Shown here piece after piece: positions 31,126 to 37,432 of a DNA stretch of 64,000 nt. Position numbers and translations under genes: made by a program. Below the pieces are notes generated by a model, which was given only the letters and a program-made list of their open reading frames with translations, searched no databases and was not told the origin of the DNA. The DNA comes from Tistrella mobilis (GTDB lineage: Bacteria; Pseudomonadota; Alphaproteobacteria; Tistrellales; Tistrellaceae): positions 909,501-973,500 of the forward strand of contig NZ_CP121017.1 in NCBI RefSeq assembly GCF_041468085.1, read 5' to 3'. Within the stretch, counting starts at the first letter, position 1. Each line of letters starts with the position of its first letter.

Positions 31126-32453
31126 AGACCAGTTTCGCCCCCGAGCGCCTGGCCGACCCCGCGATCGCCGAGGCCGAGCAGATCCTGCGGCGCTGCGTGC
31201 ATTGCGGCTTCTGCACCGCCACCTGCCCGACCTTCCTGGAACTGGGCGACGAGCGCGACAGCCCGCGCGGCCGGATCTACATGATGAAAGGCATGCTGGA
31301 ACGCGACGAGCCGGCGACGGCCGAGGTGGTGCGCCATATCGACCGCTGCCTGGGCTGTTTCGCCTGCATGACCACCTGCCCGTCGGGGGTGGACTATATG
31401 CATCTGTCCGACATGGCGCGGGCACGGGTGGCTGAGACCTATACCCGCCCGTTGCCCGAACGGCTGCTGCGCGGGCTGCTGGCCCGGCTGCTGCCCTATC
31501 CGGGCCGGTTCCGGGCGGCGCTGATCGGCGGGCGGATCGCGAAACGGCTGGGCATCGGCCGCTGGCTGGGTGCCCTCCGGCCCGAACTCAAGGCCATGAT
31601 GGCGCTGATGCCCGACGCAGTGCCGGCGCCGGCGGCGACCGACCGGCCGCAGCTCTGGCCGGCCGAAGGCACCCGCCGGGGGCGGGTGGCGCTGCTGGCC
31701 GGCTGCGCCCAGCAGGTGCTGGCGCCGGGGATCAACGCCGCGACCATCCGGGTGCTGACCCGCCACGGCTTCGATGTGGTGGTGGCGCGCGAGGCCGGGT
31801 GCTGCGGCGCGCTGGTGCAGCATATGGGGCTGATGGAGCAGGCTCGGGATCAGGCCCGGCGCAATGTCGCCGCCTGGGCGGCGCTGGCGGACCAGCCGGG
31901 CGGGCTGGACGCCATCGTGGTCACGACGTCGGGCTGCGGCACCCCGATCAAGGATTACGGCCATCTTCTGGCCGGCGACGCCTATTATGCCGATCGGGCC
32001 CGGCTGGTGGCGGGGCTGGCCCGCGACGTGACCGAGGTGCTGGCGGATCTGGATCTGACACCGGTGCGCGGCCTGCCGGCCGGGCTGCCGGTCGCCTATC
32101 ACGCCGCCTGTTCGCTGCAGCACGGCCAGAAGATCCGCGATGTGCCGAAAGAGGTGCTGAAGCGGTTGGGCATCACGCCGCTGGAACCGGCGGAGCCTCA
32201 TATCTGCTGCGGTTCTGCCGGCACCTACAACATGCTGCAGCCGGAACTGGCCGGGCGGCTGGGCGCCCGCAAGGCGCAGAACCTGCGCCGCACCGGGGCG
32301 GCGGTGGTGGCGGCAGGCAATCTGGGCTGTCTGACCCAGATTGCCGCACATCTGCCCGAGGCCCGTTTCATCCACACTGTGGAACTTGCCGACTGGCTGA
32401 CCGGCGGGCCGATGCCCGAGGCGCTGACGGGTGCGGTCGACGGGGTGGTGTGA
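31122..32453 (+). CDS. glcF: Glycolate oxidase iron-sulfur subunit GlcF
   Basis: 443 residues. Two 4Fe-4S motifs lie near the N-terminus (CVHCGFCTATCP and CLGCFACMTTCP). Two cysteine-rich CCG domains follow (EAGCCGALVQHMG and PHICCGSAGTYN). It carries electrons from the flavin subunits to the quinone pool. It starts in a four-base overlap with glcE. Its last 46 codons occur again, diverged, at 33217-33354 and in part near 32527-32606. Confidence 0.95.
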   Translation: MKTSFAPERLADPAIAEAEQILRRCVHCGFCTATCPTFLELGDERDSPRGRIYMMKGMLERDEPATAEVVRHIDRCLGCFACMTTCPSGVDYMHLSDMARARVAETYTRPLPERLLRGLLARLLPYPGRFRAALIGGRIAKRLGIGRWLGALRPELKAMMALMPDAVPAPAATDRPQLWPAEGTRRGRVALLAGCAQQVLAPGINAATIRVLTRHGFDVVVAREAGCCGALVQHMGLMEQARDQARRNVAAWAALADQPGGLDAIVVTTSGCGTPIKDYGHLLAGDAYYADRARLVAGLARDVTEVLADLDLTPVRGLPAGLPVAYHAACSLQHGQKIRDVPKEVLKRLGITPLEPAEPHICCGSAGTYNMLQPELAGRLGARKAQNLRRTGAAVVAAGNLGCLTQIAAHLPEARFIHTVELADWLTGGPMPEALTGAVDGVV

Positions 32454-32459
32454 GCGTGG

Positions 32460-32545
32460 TCAGGAGACGTTGTCGTCGCTGTCGAGGTTGGTCATGCCAC
32501 CGATAGCGGTTTCCGACATCGGCAATTCGGCGAGCCGGGCTGTCC
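32460..32545 (-). pseudogene. Peptide P1: 5'-truncated copy of the W-x-K-P-x-L peptide family
   Basis: The minus-strand frame ending at the TCA of 32460-32462 reads RLAELPMSETAIGG followed by MTNLDSDDNVS. This matches the second half of the paralogous peptides (RL-x-E-x-P-x-S-x-T-A-x-GG, C-terminal S). The W-x-K-P part is missing and no ATG lies in frame, so it is probably a remnant. Its stop lies six bases after the glcF stop, exactly the spacing seen at the second glcF end and P4. Confidence 0.6.
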
Positions 32546-32606
32546 GGCCCGGATCATCACGCCGGTATCCGAGGCGCTGGCGGGTATGACGCTGGCCGGT
32601 TGACGG
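32527..32606 (+). pseudogene. Degenerate glcF 3'-end fragment
   Basis: The first 30 bp (GGCGAGCCGGGCTGTCCGGC onward) align with the start of the better-preserved fragment at 33217. The last part (CCGAGGCGCTGGCGGG) aligns with the end of glcF; the middle is deleted. It stands next to the 3' end of P2, repeating the glcF-peptide arrangement. Confidence 0.5.
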
Positions 32607-32626
32607 AAGAGGCAATCTAAGCGGGA

Positions 32627-32764
32627 TCAGGATACACCCCGAATGCCGTCATCGGGCGCTCCGTAGGCGATCTCCGTTTCTGATGCCGGGCTCAGGCTCA
32701 GCTCGGGCTTACGCCAGGCTTGGCGTGAGGGGCGGGCCTTCCGGTTGTCGACCTTTTTAGCCAT
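32627..32764 (-). CDS. Peptide P2 of the W-x-K-P-x-L family
   Basis: 45 residues from the ATG at 32764. The sequence has a basic N-terminus, then W17-R-K-P20-E-L22, then P26-A-S-E-T30, a glycine and the ending GVS. The frame stays open about 130 bp further upstream, and codons there (YISR...L-x-A) resemble the region upstream of P4, so the true start may be farther out. The Trp-x-x-Pro-x-Leu spacing is like the Y-x-x-P-x-L leader element recognised by the PqqD-like domain in lasso-peptide systems (family knowledge), but no such protein is encoded here. Precursor peptide is inference. Confidence 0.6.
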   Translation of the reverse strand: MAKKVDNRKARPSRQAWRKPELSLSPASETEIAYGAPDDGIRGVS

Positions 32765-32898
32765 GTGGTGGCAGCTTTCATTTCTGGATAGAGGGATAAC
32801 CCTGTCGGCTTGAAGCCTGCAATATGATACAGTATTCGCACGCGAGATGTATATCTGCTGAGTCGACGGTCGATCTTCATTATCGAACAGGCGCAAAT

Positions 32899-32965
32899 CG
32901 GTCAGCGGTCACCAAATCGGGCCATTACTGCGCCATGGGCCGCCGTGATCCGGGCGAGCTGTGAC
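32899..32965 (-). pseudogene. Sulfotransferase 3'-end remnant
   Basis: In the frame ending at the TGA of 32903-32905, the minus strand reads LARITAAHGAVMARFGDR, nearly the same as the last residues of the sulfotransferase at 33634 (IARIEAAHGAVMARFDYR). No other part of that gene is present. It lies just upstream of P2, as the full sulfotransferase lies upstream of P4, which indicates duplication of a sulfotransferase-peptide segment. Confidence 0.8.
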
Positions 32966-33073
32966 GGGGGGGGCGCCCCCGCCGGCCGCGGTGTCCGATG
33001 CCGGCATTTCGTCGAGCCGGGGCTTCTGCCAGCGCGTGCGGCCGGGCATCAACCTGCGACTTTGATCGGTCAT
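32909..33073 (-). CDS. Peptide P3 of the W-x-K-P-x-L family, 3' end replaced
   Basis: 54 residues from the ATG at 33073. It contains R-W-Q-K-P-R-L-D-E-M-P-A-S-D-T-A-A-G-G-G, matching P2 and P4. After that the family similarity stops at a run of eight cytosines and the frame runs out of phase through the sulfotransferase remnant to a stop at 32909. The C-terminal 20 residues are therefore probably not ancestral. It may be a fusion product of a deletion. Confidence 0.55.
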   Translation of the reverse strand: MTDQSRRLMPGRTRWQKPRLDEMPASDTAAGGGAPPVTARPDHGGPWRSNGPIW

Positions 33074-33216
33074 TGCGTCATGCCCTTATCCGGACATTGA
33101 GACCACAGCTGCAGGGTGCCGATATTGTATGCCGAGAAAGCCCTTGGATGCATCGTGTCCGGATACGTCTTCGATTTCTTTGACGGGGATTATTTCGAGT
33201 CACCGGTGTCGAGGTC

Positions 33217-33354
33217 GGCGATCCGGGCCGTTTGACCCGGATCCCCGCCCATCTGCCCGAGACGCGCTTCATCCACACTGTGGAACTTGCCGACTGGCTG
33301 ACCGGCGGGCCGATGCCGGAAGGGCTGGCGGGGGTAGTTGAGGACGTGGCATGA
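33217..33354 (+). pseudogene. Duplicated glcF 3' end (46 codons)
   Basis: The frame reads GDPGRLTRIPAHLPETRFIH, then TVELADWLTGGPMPEGLAG, and stops at 33352-33354. It matches the last 46 codons of glcF, with the central 40 bp almost identical in DNA. There is no start codon or upstream glcF sequence. Its stop is followed six bases later by the stop codon of P4 on the other strand, exactly as glcF is by P1. Confidence 0.9.
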
Positions 33355-33360
33355 CCCGGA

Positions 33361-33498
33361 TCAGGAAATGCCAAACTTGCCGTCGGCCCTGTTCCCGCCG
33401 CTAAACGCCGTCTGTGACGTCGGGGTCTGGTTCAGCTGGGGCTTGTGCCACACTTTGCGTGAGACATTGATCTTATGATCGTGGATCTTACTGGTCAT
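33361..33498 (-). CDS. Peptide P4 of the W-x-K-P-x-L family
   Basis: 45 residues from the ATG at 33498, the same length as P2. It has a basic N-terminus, W17-H-K-P20-Q-L22, P26-T-S-Q-T30, a GG pair and the ending GIS. The frame is open from the sulfotransferase stop to here with a second possible start at 33552; the upstream codons (LYISREAAYI) resemble those upstream of P2. It is the peptide gene next to the intact sulfotransferase and HprK-like genes. It may be their substrate or a precursor peptide (inference). Confidence 0.65.
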   Translation of the reverse strand: MTSKIHDHKINVSRKVWHKPQLNQTPTSQTAFSGGNRADGKFGIS

Positions 33499-33633
33499 GC
33501 TTACCGCTGCTTTGATGCTGATGTTGAATGGTTTCTCAGCCTTGAGACTCATCAAAGTGATATAGGCCGCTTCCCGGGAGATGTACAGACCCCGATCCGT
33601 GTTGAAATATGACCGTTCAGGGGAGCGGGCCGA

Positions 33634-34500
33634 TCAGCGGTAGTCGAAGCGGGCCATGACTGCACCATGGGCCGCTTCGATCCGGGCGATCTGAGCCGGG
33701 GTCAGCGCGGTGCGCCAGCCCGCGACGCGGCCCTGGCGGAAAAAGCGCCGGCCGGGGGCGGCGGCATTCGTGAAGCCGGTTTCGGCTTCGCGGCGCTGCA
33801 GGCGGCTGAAGGTGGTGCCGTCGACCGCCCCGGCAATGGTCGCGGGATCGGCTGGCCAGCCGAGGAAACGGGCGATGCGCGTGAAGATGTGGTGCGGATC
33901 GGCCACCATATCCTCGTAGCGGATGATCAGGACAGGGAATCCCAGAGGGGCAGCCGTCCAGCTGTCGGCATGGGCCGACCAGCTGCCGAGCGGCTGGCGG
34001 AGCTGGCCGTAAAGACCGTCGCCGCCGGTGTCGATGGCGGTATCGGGTTTTGCCAGAAGATCGATGGCGGCATCGATCGACAGGCCCCAGTGATGGGCAT
34101 TGGAGACGGCGAGATCGCGCGGATCCCGGACCAGGTAGACGGCGCCGCGAGTGAGCGCCGGCGGGAAGACCGGACGGCCATCCGGGGTGGCGGTGAAGGC
34201 CTCGTGCGTGCGGTGGAGATGCAGGCCGGGATCCGCCGTCAGCCGCCGCGCGAAAGCCGCCGGGCGGAGGTTCGACGCCTCGTCATCGGTGAGCCAGGCA
34301 CTGTCGAGGCCGAGGCAGCGGTCGAAAACTGCCCGGTTGCTGGCCATGGTGAGCCAGCCCTGATCGAGCACGTCGAAATCCGGCGCCGCGCCGCCGTGCT
34401 TCAGGCTCCAGAGCGCCAGCCGGAGCCAGGTGCTGCCGGATTTGGGATAGGCGGTCACCCAGACGAAGCCGTCCCCCGGCGTGATGCGGGGCGCGGTCAT
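33634..34500 (-). CDS. PAPS-dependent sulfotransferase
   Basis: 288 residues. The 5'-phosphosulfate loop is YPKSGSTWLRLALWSL near residue 15, and the 3'-phosphate-binding motif is VYLVRDPRDLAVSNAHHW near residue 125, both intact. A HRTHEA stretch may hold the catalytic histidine. The protein would transfer sulfate from PAPS to a hydroxyl or amine of an unknown acceptor. Its ATG overlaps the HprK-like stop by four bases, so the two are translationally coupled. The acceptor could be the neighbouring peptides (inference). Confidence 0.9.
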   Translation of the reverse strand: MTAPRITPGDGFVWVTAYPKSGSTWLRLALWSLKHGGAAPDFDVLDQGWLTMASNRAVFDRCLGLDSAWLTDDEASNLRPAAFARRLTADPGLHLHRTHEAFTATPDGRPVFPPALTRGAVYLVRDPRDLAVSNAHHWGLSIDAAIDLLAKPDTAIDTGGDGLYGQLRQPLGSWSAHADSWTAAPLGFPVLIIRYEDMVADPHHIFTRIARFLGWPADPATIAGAVDGTTFSRLQRREAETGFTNAAAPGRRFFRQGRVAGWRTALTPAQIARIEAAHGAVMARFDYR

Positions 34501-35345
34501 GACATGGCCTCGACATGATCGGCGAGCCGGGCCGGGGCCCGCCAGTCGCGGCGATGACGCAGACGAATGAGCGGCGCATGGCCGGGCAGGGCCGCGACCT
34601 CGGCGAAGATCGGCCGGGCGCCGCGCAGGATGCGGCCCTCATAGAGCTGGCGGACGTTGCCCTCCATGGTCTGGAAGGCTTCGAGGCCGCGGGCCGGCAA
34701 GACCTCCAGATCGCTGCCGCCGATGGTCTGCCAGAGGTGGAAGATCGCCGTGACCGGCAGGGGGATCGTGTGCCGCGCCGTCGGCAGATGACGCAGCCGC
34801 GGCACCCCCGCCCGGCGCCGCCGCGGCGGCGGGCCATCGATGCGATCGGCAGAACGGGCACTGGCATCGGCATGCAGGGTGAGCCCGGCCGGGCCGGGCA
34901 GGATGAGGGCCGGCCCCGGCAGGCCCGAGAGCACGACGATGCCGTCGGCCAGCAGATGATGACCGCGGGCGAGGAGTTCGGCCGCAAGCAGGGATTTGCC
35001 GCTGCCGGACGCGCCGGTGATCAGCACGGCCCGCCCGCCGATCACCACCGCCGTGCCCGACACCGGCAGCAGGCCGTGGATATGGCAGGCAAGGCCGGGG
35101 AGCATGTCTTCGGCAAGCAGCAGCCGGGCGGCCGCGGGATCGATGGCGCCGGTGGTGTCGATCACCGCATGCCGGGCGGCGGCATCCAGATGGCAGCCGC
35201 CGCCGATGGGACCGGCGAGGCGTATGCTGCGGTCGGCCTCGATCCGGATCAGCGGGCCGGCATCCAGCGGCGGCGCTTCAGGCAGGGACGGCAGCGGCCC
35301 TGCGGTGATGTCGATCTGCGGGACGGCGGCGGGTGCGGTCACCAT
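34497..35345 (-). CDS. HPr kinase/phosphorylase-like protein
   Basis: 282 residues from the ATG at 35345. The P-loop GASGSGKS lies at residues about 111-118, followed by LARGHHLLADGIVVL, resembling the HprK segment where DD follows the P-loop helix. It lacks the N-terminal domain and the PTS context of true HprK. HprK-like kinases occur in RiPP clusters, for example the PadeK/ThcoK kinases that phosphorylate lasso peptides, and in PqqD-associated 'HPr-rel' systems. It overlaps the Rrf2 gene upstream by one base and the sulfotransferase downstream by four. Confidence 0.8.
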   Translation of the reverse strand: MVTAPAAVPQIDITAGPLPSLPEAPPLDAGPLIRIEADRSIRLAGPIGGGCHLDAAARHAVIDTTGAIDPAAARLLLAEDMLPGLACHIHGLLPVSGTAVVIGGRAVLITGASGSGKSLLAAELLARGHHLLADGIVVLSGLPGPALILPGPAGLTLHADASARSADRIDGPPPRRRRAGVPRLRHLPTARHTIPLPVTAIFHLWQTIGGSDLEVLPARGLEAFQTMEGNVRQLYEGRILRGARPIFAEVAALPGHAPLIRLRHRRDWRAPARLADHVEAMS

Positions 35346-35794
35346 CAGATGTGGTACATCAGGGTCTGGCGGTCGGCATCCGACAGGCTGCGCATCTCGG
35401 CGAGCGTGCGGTTGTCGAGGATGCCGGCGATCGCATTGCGGACATCCATCATCATCAGCCGCACGGCACACTGTTCCTCGTCGGTGCAGTCGTCACAGCG
35501 GCGATAGGACCGGCGGCTGGCGCAGGCGATGGGGGCGAGCGGGCCGTCGAGCACCCGGATCACATGACCGATCCGGATGTCGGAAGCCGGGCGGGCAAGG
35601 GTGTAGCCGCCGCCCTTGCCCTTCTTGCTGTGCACGAAGCCGGCATTGCGCAGCTCGCCCAGGATCGCGTCGAGGAATTTCTTGGGGATTTCGTTTTCGG
35701 CGGCAATGTCGGAGACCAGGGACAATTCACCCGGCTCTTTGCCCGCCAGATGCACCAGGGCCTTGAGCCCGTACTTGCCCTTGTTGGTCAGCAT
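35345..35794 (-). CDS. Rrf2-family transcriptional regulator
   Basis: 149 residues. The start MLTNKGKYGLKALVHLA and the winged helix (NEIPKKFLDAILGELRNAGFV, then SKKGKGGGYTLA) are typical of Rrf2/IscR. A cysteine cluster C-x8-C-x2-C-x6-C (CASRRSYRRCDDCTDEEQC) in the C-terminal half could ligate an Fe-S cluster or sense redox or thiols. The stop and the HprK-like ATG share a base (TGATG), tying it to the kinase and sulfotransferase. It probably regulates this operon; sulfur or redox control would fit (inference). Confidence 0.9.
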   Translation of the reverse strand: MLTNKGKYGLKALVHLAGKEPGELSLVSDIAAENEIPKKFLDAILGELRNAGFVHSKKGKGGGYTLARPASDIRIGHVIRVLDGPLAPIACASRRSYRRCDDCTDEEQCAVRLMMMDVRNAIAGILDNRTLAEMRSLSDADRQTLMYHI

Positions 35795-37016
35795 ATCTGT
35801 CGAGGGTCTCCGCAGGCCGTGCCGGAAAGTCTCCGTGGCCGCTAGAGATAGTGGAATGATGCCACAGGATCAACGCCGCAAGGCCGAGCAGGGCGCCGAA
35901 ACCGGTGAGCGCGGCATCCTGCCCCCAGCGGTCGGCGACCAGCCCGGTCAGGATCACCGGCAGGCTGAAGCCGGCATAGGCAAGCAGGAAGAAGCCGGCG
36001 GTCGCCCGGGTGGCGGCTTGGCCTGCCCGCATCAGCACGCCGGCGAGGCCGCCCGCATGGATCAGCCCGTAGCAGGCGGTGGCGGCCAGCGCCGTGCCCG
36101 CGAAGACCGCCGCGATGCTGCCCGAAAGGGCGCCCCAGGCGATGAGCGGATAGCTGGCCATCAGCACCAGCAGGCCGCGGCGGACGGCCCGTTCCGGCGC
36201 CATGCGCCGTGCGGTCGGCACCGCCAGGATGCCGGGCACGATCACCAGGAAGGTGGCGAAACCGGCATGGGCATCAAGCCCGGCGCGGGCGAGGGTGGCG
36301 GGCAGCACCGCGATCACCAGCCCGACCACCGCCCAGGCGATGAAGATCGCACCGCCGAAGACCAGCGTTCCGGGCGGAAAGGCCGGGCGCCGGAAGATCC
36401 CGCCCCGGGCCGTAAGGCGCAGCGCATCGGGCAGACCGTGCAGCCCGGCGAATGCCAGACAGGCAAGGCCGATCCAGGCCGGGCCGCTCAACGGCCGCAT
36501 CCAGGCCAGCGGATCGAGCAGCAGGCAGAGCGCGGTTGCCGCGGCACCGAAACCGAAGCCGAAAGTGGTGGCGACCGAGACCCGGGCCGCGATCCGCCGC
36601 GGATCGGTGCCGGGGGGAAACTGCGCGGTCATCAAGGCGGGCGCCAGGGTCGAGGTGGTGGCGACCGCGATGCCGAGCAGGGCCCGCGACAGGCCGAGGG
36701 TGGCGATGCCCGGCCAGAGGATCATGACAAGATCGGCCAGGACGGCGAGGCCGAGGGCAAGCCTGGCCGTGCGCGCAGCCCCCAGCCGGTCGGGCAGGCC
36801 GCTGCCGGCCAGCAGCACCGGCAGGGCGCCGCCGACATAGGCCGCGAAGGCAAGCCCGGCCATGGCCGTGCCGTGACCATCGGCTTGCGCCAGCCGGGCG
36901 GCGAGCGGCGTGTGCAGATTAGCCGCCGTGGTGACGGTGAGCAGGGCCAGCGCCAGCCGTGCCGGCGATCCGGTACGGCGGGGGCGCGATCGGGCGGTGG
37001 TGAGATCGGCGGTCAT
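35727..37016 (-). CDS. Major facilitator superfamily transporter
   Basis: 429 residues with about twelve hydrophobic segments and an internal loop GGALPVLLAGSGLPDRLGAAR corresponding to the MFS A motif region. The last 22 codons run over the Rrf2 start (68 bp overlap); the hydrophilic C-terminal tail may therefore be read-through of a short tail. A 27-bp palindrome lies about 100 bp upstream. The substrate is unknown. Its place between the double-glycine peptide and the kinase/sulfotransferase genes makes a peptide or amino-acid exporter possible. Confidence 0.88.
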   Translation of the reverse strand: MTADLTTARSRPRRTGSPARLALALLTVTTAANLHTPLAARLAQADGHGTAMAGLAFAAYVGGALPVLLAGSGLPDRLGAARTARLALGLAVLADLVMILWPGIATLGLSRALLGIAVATTSTLAPALMTAQFPPGTDPRRIAARVSVATTFGFGFGAAATALCLLLDPLAWMRPLSGPAWIGLACLAFAGLHGLPDALRLTARGGIFRRPAFPPGTLVFGGAIFIAWAVVGLVIAVLPATLARAGLDAHAGFATFLVIVPGILAVPTARRMAPERAVRRGLLVLMASYPLIAWGALSGSIAAVFAGTALAATACYGLIHAGGLAGVLMRAGQAATRATAGFFLLAYAGFSLPVILTGLVADRWGQDAALTGFGALLGLAALILWHHSTISSGHGDFPARPAETLDRYADQQGQVRAQGPGASGGQRAG

Positions 37017-37139: not shown

Positions 37140-37301
37140 TCAGCTGAACCGCGTTCTGGGGACGATCCCGCCTGAGACGCCGTCCAGCTGGTCGTCGCTG
37201 AGATTGTTCTGCTCCACCGCAGGGGCAGCCGGTGGCACCGGCTTTTCGTCGGCCCTGGGGGGCAGGTTCCCGGTCGGGGGCGTCGTCGTCTTGTCCGTCA
37301 T
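37140..37301 (-). CDS. Small peptide with double-glycine-type motif
   Basis: 53 residues from the ATG at 37301 (GGAG about 8 bases upstream); a start at 37328 would add nine residues. The N-terminus is proline-rich and acidic, then NLSDDQLDGVSGG followed by eight residues, IVPRTRFS. The LS-x-x-x-L-x-x-V-x-GG pattern is that of double-glycine leader peptides of bacteriocin-type or Nif11-like precursors cleaved by C39 peptidases. The very short segment after GG is unusual. No C39 peptidase transporter is in the window. It is flanked by the two 27-bp palindromes and precedes the MFS gene. Confidence 0.6.
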   Translation of the reverse strand: MTDKTTTPPTGNLPPRADEKPVPPAAPAVEQNNLSDDQLDGVSGGIVPRTRFS

Positions 37302-37432
37302 CGGTCCGGCTCCGCGGCGGGTGGGCATCTGACGGCAGCGTGCCAGCCGGGCTGCGGTGCAGGCCAGCCTCTGCAGAGGGGCGGTAAACCGCGATTGCCC
37401 CGCGCGGGCGGGGCCGTCGTCATCGGGGCTCG

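Follow-up and report, generated by a model that had tools for sequence, protein, structure and literature searches.

The minus-strand locus analysed here lies in a 64-kb stretch of the Tistrella mobilis genome and encodes small peptides (P1 to P4) next to a 3'-phosphoadenosine-5'-phosphosulfate (PAPS)-type sulfotransferase and an HprK-like protein. It is probably a satellite module that provides precursors and sulfation within a dispersed lasso-type system of ribosomally synthesised and post-translationally modified peptides (RiPPs), which would be matured in trans. The whole stretch is hereafter called the window (C4:909501-973500 of the genome designated G000), and coordinates are given as positions in it. 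G001 and G002 designate the two other Tistrella genomes that were compared, and L-numbers designate fetched loci. On the minus strand, the genes of an MFS-like protein, an Rrf2 regulator, the HprK-like protein and the sulfotransferase form an overlapping run, followed by P4, P3, P2 and P1.

Two of the four peptide genes are complete. P4 (33361..33498, minus strand) and P2 (32627..32764, minus strand) both encode 45 residues and, as originally predicted, align end to end, with 38% identity. The leader of P4 extends to a T-A pair and is followed by the predicted core FSGGNRADGKFGIS, with an Asp at core position 8 (Asp8) and a C-terminal Ser. The predicted core of P2 is IAYGAPDDGIRGVS, with Asp7/Asp8 and again a C-terminal Ser. 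P3 (32909..33073, minus strand, 54 aa) retains an intact leader, but with a replaced 3' end that runs into the relic of the 3' end of a second sulfotransferase; the peptide displays neither an acid at core positions 7-9 nor a C-terminal Ser. P1 (32460..32615, minus strand) is a remnant retaining only the end of the leader and the core IGGMTNLDSDDNVS, which differs by 1 residue in G002. Its listed frame starts with TTG (32615), the sole in-frame ATG being found just ahead of the core (...LP-M-SETA). The R-W-K-P-L motif that the original prediction attributed to all four peptides thus holds for three of them: R-x2-W-x-K-P-x-L-x3-P-x-S-x-T is matched by P2, P3 and P4, with a spacing of two residues after the Arg, while P1 is devoid of W-x-K-P.

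We derived from the Tistrella peptides a plain motif, W..P.[LIVMF].{7,9}T.{7,9}[DE].{4,8}S-stop. Searched in the six frames of the window, it retrieved P2 and P4 only; it yielded no match in 60 windows shuffled within 1-kb blocks and 21 matches in 79 non-Tistrella sulfotransferase loci (1.12 Mb). No match to P1-P4 was found in Pfam or NCBIfam at an E-value of 1. The locus is conserved in G001, with three intact peptides, and in G002, with two. P4 has counterparts at this locus in both genomes, two copies being found in G001, and counterparts of P2 are likewise present in both. P2 and P4 are genuine precursor genes, as the original prediction had proposed for the peptide frames.

The divergence of these peptides was compared across the three genomes. 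The leader DNA of the P2 group, together with some 60 bases preceding it, is almost identical, the proportions of synonymous (pS) and nonsynonymous (pN) differences being 0.030 and 0.033 in the leader against 0.303 and 0.409 in the core, where an Asp persists at position 8 and a Ser at the end (small sample). In the P4 group, also a small sample, pN/pS was 0.74 for the leader and 0.71 for the core, with no leader-core contrast of the P2 kind. Overall ratios of nonsynonymous to synonymous substitution rates (dN/dS), calculated on few sites, were 0.73-2.83 for the P2 group and 0.41-0.93 for the P4 group. The original prediction had taken a Ka/Ks near 1 among P2, P3 and P4 as a sign that the frames are not selected as proteins. 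Such a ratio is partly observed, yet the P2 group combines a near-fixed leader with a fast core in which Asp8 and the terminal Ser are conserved. Because a fixed leader and a fast core are expected of a RiPP, the near-1 ratio of this group does not refute coding, and Ka/Ks near 1 is an unsuited criterion for RiPP precursors. Chance or non-coding frames were also considered, and were rejected in the light of the shuffled windows, the leader-core divergence pattern and the conserved Asp8 and final Ser.

The leaders resemble those of lasso peptides, as had been anticipated: P2, P3 and P4 exhibit the [WY]xxPxL motif, here W-x-x-P-x-L, together with a Thr at position -2, and P2 and P4 carry an acid (Asp8) in the 7-9 interval of the core. 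In the sections of PMC10368454 considered here, kinase-linked lasso precursors are described as having a YxxPxL leader and a Thr at -2, save in a group with Ile or Val at -2, and Asp8 is the ring residue of the precursor BsfA. For the kinase-linked precursors other than BsfA, phosphorylation is placed at the C-terminal Ser (PMC10368454 and PMC8498205, in part). To extend the comparison, 47 precursors of the genus were compiled by hand (42 plus L047, L048, L050, L103b and L109d), the Thr being chosen by a rule blind to acids; 45 of the 47 have W..P and a Thr in range, the exceptions being L047 and P1. The peptides are related and were found with models of Ser-ending peptides, so that both the shuffles and the Ser counts overstate significance. 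With this caveat, a C-terminal Ser is found in 46/47 precursors, the exception being the broken P3. An acid is present at core positions 7-9 in 42/45 (5000 core shuffles: mean 12.4, highest 24) and exactly at position 8 in 34/45 (mean 4.3, highest 12). The reading of the peptides as lasso-type precursors with putative lasso-type tailoring genes stands.

Further support comes from the two enzyme genes at the locus. The sulfotransferase (288 aa; 33634..34500, minus strand) and the HprK-like protein (282 aa; 34497..35345, minus strand) are coupled by an ATGA overlap, as originally described. The best 80 of at least 543 confirmed relatives of the sulfotransferase were analysed in genome contigs; they belong to Proteobacteria, Bacteroidota, Chloroflexi, Acidobacteria and other taxa. 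At 70 of the 80 loci, the gene immediately preceding the sulfotransferase is HprK-like; seven of the 10 others contain no HprK within 8 kb. Within 8 kb of the 70 pairs, we detected an AsnB-like protein in 53 cases, PqqD in 56, the lasso peptidase B2 in 46 and all three in 35. The corresponding numbers for the 38 pairs with full flanks were 34, 34, 25 and 22, respectively. Among the latter, a single pair outside the genus (L144) was found without AsnB, PqqD and B2, and the motif scan returned no matching peptide there. Comparison precursors were collected from L118-L197 by taking 36 of 48 rows; the 12 omitted were two from Tistrella (L170), one sister copy (L194), two doubtful cases (L183, L188) and seven judged spurious by eye. 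They show an acid at positions 7-9 in 31 of the 33 with a Thr (no shuffles for this set), a C-terminal Ser in 29/36 and a Gly at position 1 (Gly1) in just 6/33. The 70 gene neighbourhoods and the comparison precursors identify HprK-sulfotransferase as a widespread lasso-type tailoring pair. The prediction that the two genes have a tailoring function is in line with this distribution. Since the pair is common in lasso-type clusters and the peptides conform to the core rule of lasso precursors, the idea that the locus represents a different kind of modified peptide system is not favoured.

The sulfotransferase matches PF00685 above the cut-off (E 4.4e-27) and retains the 5' phosphosulfate binding (5' PSB) loop (YPKSGSTW), a His at position 99 and R125/D129/S133; we take the loop and the His to have the roles usually assigned to them in PAPS sulfotransferases, the latter being catalytic. 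It is under strong constraint, with a dN/dS of 0.15-0.19 against 0.37-0.59 for the HprK-like protein. The latter matches PF07475 (E 7.7e-9) and was modelled confidently, with a predicted local distance difference test (pLDDT) score of 93. The model superposes on HprK/P with a Z-score of 13.9 over 129 residues at 2.2 A (model 90-282 on 134-281) and on PEPCK with a Z-score of 13.8 over 235 residues at 4.2 A, PEPCK being first in the Foldseek order. The fold is thus of HprK type, with PEPCK tied in Z, and Walker A, Ser118 and Asp134 are retained. The catalytic His and the Asp-Asp pair of lasso kinases are nevertheless missing, as Ser96 occupies the profile-aligned catalytic His column and Gly135 the second (last) Asp column, identically in the 3/3 Tistrella orthologues. 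An alignment of 70 sequences was built from the focal protein and 69 of 110 HprK stretches; the His column contains 64 His, three Gln and three Ser, and position 135 is acidic in 67. The focal protein and its two orthologues are the only ones among the 70 without both the His and the acid at 135. A regular-expression search covering 102 of 114 sequences retrieved DG in the same three and in L137, which falls outside the alignment. In BsfK, alanine changes at the residues matching the His and the last Asp harm solubility or activity, according to the part of PMC10368454 used here. In the HprK proteins of three cyclase-linked Tistrella pairs, a Gln replaces the His and the Asp-Asp is kept; therefore, absence of the His may be tolerable on its own. 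As judged from these substitutions, the HprK-like partner has probably lost kinase activity, and phosphorylation as the main modification, proposed in the original prediction, is doubtful.

No maturation gene accompanies the pair and its precursors. As had been observed from the sequence, no cyclase, protease or PqqD gene is nearby: no Asn_synthase, PqqD or Transglut_core3 match was found in the window. A single Transglut_core3 protein exceeds the Pfam cut-off in each of G000, G001 and G002, weaker matches lying below. In G000 it is encoded on another contig (C1:736888) and passes NF033537 lasso_biosyn_B2 (71.7 vs 33). The B2 neighbourhood is common to the three genomes; the surrounding 10.5 to 14 kb stretches revealed no HprK, sulfotransferase, AsnB or PqqD. 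Among the frames from 20 aa near B2, the best matches to the precursor models had E-values of 0.16 and 0.22, and none contained the whole motif. PqqD matches number 7 in G000, 7 in G001 and 10 in G002. In G000, a precursor lies near each of the AsnB-like cyclase candidates of L032, L035, L105 and L111; the nearest AsnB-like candidate (C4:1004395) is on the same contig, about 60 kb from the focal locus. Precursors matched at an E-value of 0.001 or better number 15 in G000, 17 in G001 and 16 in G002, many being in the model by construction. The genus loci fetched comprise ten HprK-sulfotransferase pairs (a subset of the HprK matches), of which three have an adjoining cyclase (L032, L050 and L049). 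At two of these (L032, 7576-8727; L050, 8518-9600), a conserved protein of 360-383 aa with no family match follows PqqD and the cyclase, a candidate partner where B2 is missing.

Following our preferred reading, one of the PqqD-type RiPP recognition element (RRE) proteins encoded elsewhere would bind the W-x-K-P-x-L leader of P2 and P4, and the single stand-alone B2 peptidase of the genome would cut the leader after T-x. An AsnB-like cyclase encoded elsewhere would then join the amine of core residue 1 to the side chain of Asp8. The sulfotransferase of the locus would most likely sulfate the C-terminal Ser, because no other hydroxyl residue keeps a constant position across the seven intact peptides of the locus. 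Its HprK-like partner would most likely bind the substrate or a nucleotide, or function as a weak kinase.

Several observations weigh against this reading. RRE (B1/PqqD), B2 peptidase and AsnB-like cyclase are absent from the locus, and the Gly usual at core position 1 is replaced by Phe in P4 and Ile in P2; for these two reasons, the claim of a lasso cluster fails at the locus itself. Activity of distant RRE, B2 and cyclase proteins on P2 and P4 is a step that we infer. The G000 cyclase candidates that were scanned score 93 to 178 against an NCBIfam lasso cyclase cut-off of 525; the cyclase of an HprK, sulfotransferase, PqqD and B2 locus in another genome also falls below it, at 194. The 14-aa cores leave only six residues after Asp8, which is short for a threaded tail. 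Such short tails would suit non-cyclic peptides of lasso lineage, whose maturation is by now limited to cleavage and to sulfation (or phosphorylation) of the C-terminal Ser, no macrolactam being formed, a narrower form of the different-system idea mentioned above. We regard this explanation as unlikely. The absence of an adjoining cyclase from 7 of the 10 genus pairs also speaks in its favour, as does the scarcity of Gly1 in precursors that are not cyclase-linked (4/34 vs 5/11 in the others, the labels being assigned by us), but a linear peptide has no obvious need for an Asp8 retained amid a changing core. Moreover, Asp8 is found together with a first residue other than Gly (Phe, Leu, Ile, Val or Asn) in precursors of the B2-PqqD-AsnB loci L138, L147, L169 and L193, although these particular precursors are without the final Ser.

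P1 and P3 are broken, which indicates that decay is under way, and the peptide dN/dS is near 1 overall. Together with the sulfotransferase relic and the lost HprK catalytic residues, these features would also be expected if the locus were the remnant of a former complete lasso cluster whose product is no longer made. This scenario is improbable given the low dN/dS of the sulfotransferase, the retention of Walker A and the first Asp in the HprK-like protein, and the counterparts of P2 and P4, which in each of the three genomes are open and have Asp at 8 and Ser as the last residue; the HprK changes are themselves identical in the three. A further explanation departs from the preferred one only in the role of the enzymes on site, so that the chances of the two overlap. 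Here an active HprK-like kinase would phosphorylate the C-terminal Ser, as in a classical kinase-tailored lasso peptide, sulfation being secondary or directed at another residue. The retained Walker A, Ser118 and Asp134, the superposition on HprK/P and the C-terminal Ser, a known target in other lasso precursors (PMC8498205, in part), are consistent with it. We still hold it to be somewhat unlikely, the His and the last Asp being replaced and the matching changes in BsfK being harmful.

Turning to the rest of the locus, the Rrf2-family regulator (35345..35794, minus strand) lies upstream in the same overlapping run, its stop overlapping the HprK-like start by 1 base. It matches the CymR model with 91 bits, below the cut-off of 195; one may speculate that a regulator with a sub-threshold match to this cysteine regulator would suit a sulfate-dependent pathway. 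The MFS-like membrane protein (35727..37016, minus strand; PF07690, E 5e-7, 29.4 bits, just under the curated cut-off of 33.4), also found beside the locus in G001 and G002, is a possible exporter. Upstream of it, a 62-aa frame (37140-37328, minus strand) exhibits a double-glycine leader (NLSDDQLDGVSGG) and weak bacteriocin-leader matches (CTB family, E 0.04; mersacidin family, E 0.06). The 3' end of a neighbouring plus-strand glcF-like gene is present twice over about 40 codons (33232-33354 and 32330-32453, the near copy lying between P4 and P3), which fits a local tandem duplication. The sulfotransferase 3' end behind P3 (approximate limits 32902..32960, minus strand), read from the sequence, looks like another trace of such a duplication.

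A wider picture can be tentatively drawn, although we consider that it has somewhat less than an even chance of being right. In a genome-dispersed combinatorial lasso-type system, the lone B2 and a few PqqD/cyclase pairs would mature at least 15 scattered precursors having a conserved leader and fast-changing cores of mostly 13-15 residues, and satellite modules would vary the end group of the Ser. This group would be a sulfate at the present locus, added by the sulfotransferase together with an HprK partner that descends from a kinase but does not catalyse; a phosphate with nucleotidyl or sugar groups at the HprK-sulfotransferase-nucleotidyltransferase loci; and acyl groups at loci with MBOAT and GDSL proteins.

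Various gene sets accompany the precursors in the genus. At L033, L043 and L045, HprK-sulfotransferase-NTP_transf_6 is found without a cyclase and with divergent precursors in which a Cys stands close to the C-terminus (DGYCGS); L043 carries the HprK-sulfotransferase pair twice in a row. The HprK-like paralogue of L033 retains the His and an acidic pair. At L100 (4720-8723) and L101 (3963-7678), lasso-type precursors ending in DGSGQS-like sequences form groups next to a DltB-like MBOAT acyltransferase and a GDSL-type protein. At L109 (4808-8671), a precursor group is accompanied by only like-sized frames at the MBOAT/GDSL places. These three groups are a possible acylation satellite. The precursors of L104 are without MBOAT or GDSL-type genes. 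At L034, L042 and L044, PqqD and an HprK-like gene adjoin two methyltransferases of TylF and CmcI type (assigned by Pfam on L034, and by similarity to L034 for the other two); these loci are another tailoring set.

A class-wide precursor search over 289 genomes, three of them Tistrella, gave matches in 7, that is in 4/286 outside the genus, an undercount as the model was built from Tistrella. In G094, a genome of another alphaproteobacterial family, 3 of 4 precursors lie in 15-kb stretches without AsnB, PqqD, B2 or sulfotransferase (L273, L274 and L275), with an HprK match 3.5 kb from the precursor in L274. These three orphan precursor-like peptides are found among genes such as polA and rmuC and have no Thr at -2.

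Prochlorosin-type lanthipeptides offer a similar organisation, with many dispersed precursors, few enzymes acting in trans, a conserved leader and a variable core, but their chemistry and enzymes differ from those of the present system. Among lasso peptides, the closest known cases are the HprK-tailored ones, namely paeninodin and the systems of the kinases ThcoK and SyanK, which share, in the passages of PMC8498205 considered, an HprK-homologous gene beside the precursor, a C-terminal Ser and a lasso-type leader. Unlike them, the focal locus has no B1, B2 or C genes, the catalytic residues of its kinase-like protein are changed, and the kinase-like gene is coupled with one for a sulfotransferase. 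The bsf cluster of Bradymonas sediminis likewise has a YxxPxL-type leader, an Asp8 ring residue and an HprK-like kinase, BsfK. The latter, however, modifies Ser3 and has His148 and Asp186-Asp187, the precursor has Ile at -2, and the cluster is complete (PMC10368454, in part). In Firmicutes lasso clusters, a putative sulfotransferase gene is also linked to the precursor, but the essential genes are on site and the relevant passage of PMC8498205 gives the sulfotransferase no role. A search of titles and abstracts, with subscription journals largely outside its range, returned no dispersed lasso system and no characterised lasso sulfotransferase.

If the preferred reading is true, the locus would be a candidate for the first sulfation of a lasso peptide, PMC8498205 mentioning, in the passage considered, only a putative gene; high-resolution mass spectrometry can tell sulfation (+79.957) from phosphorylation (+79.966). 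It would also place a lasso kinase fold whose catalytic residues have been lost beside a sulfotransferase. Many precursors would escape searches that look for complete clusters in genomes where a single peptidase sits apart from the precursors and tailoring genes, and Tistrella would possess a natural lasso platform in which one machine serves many substrates.

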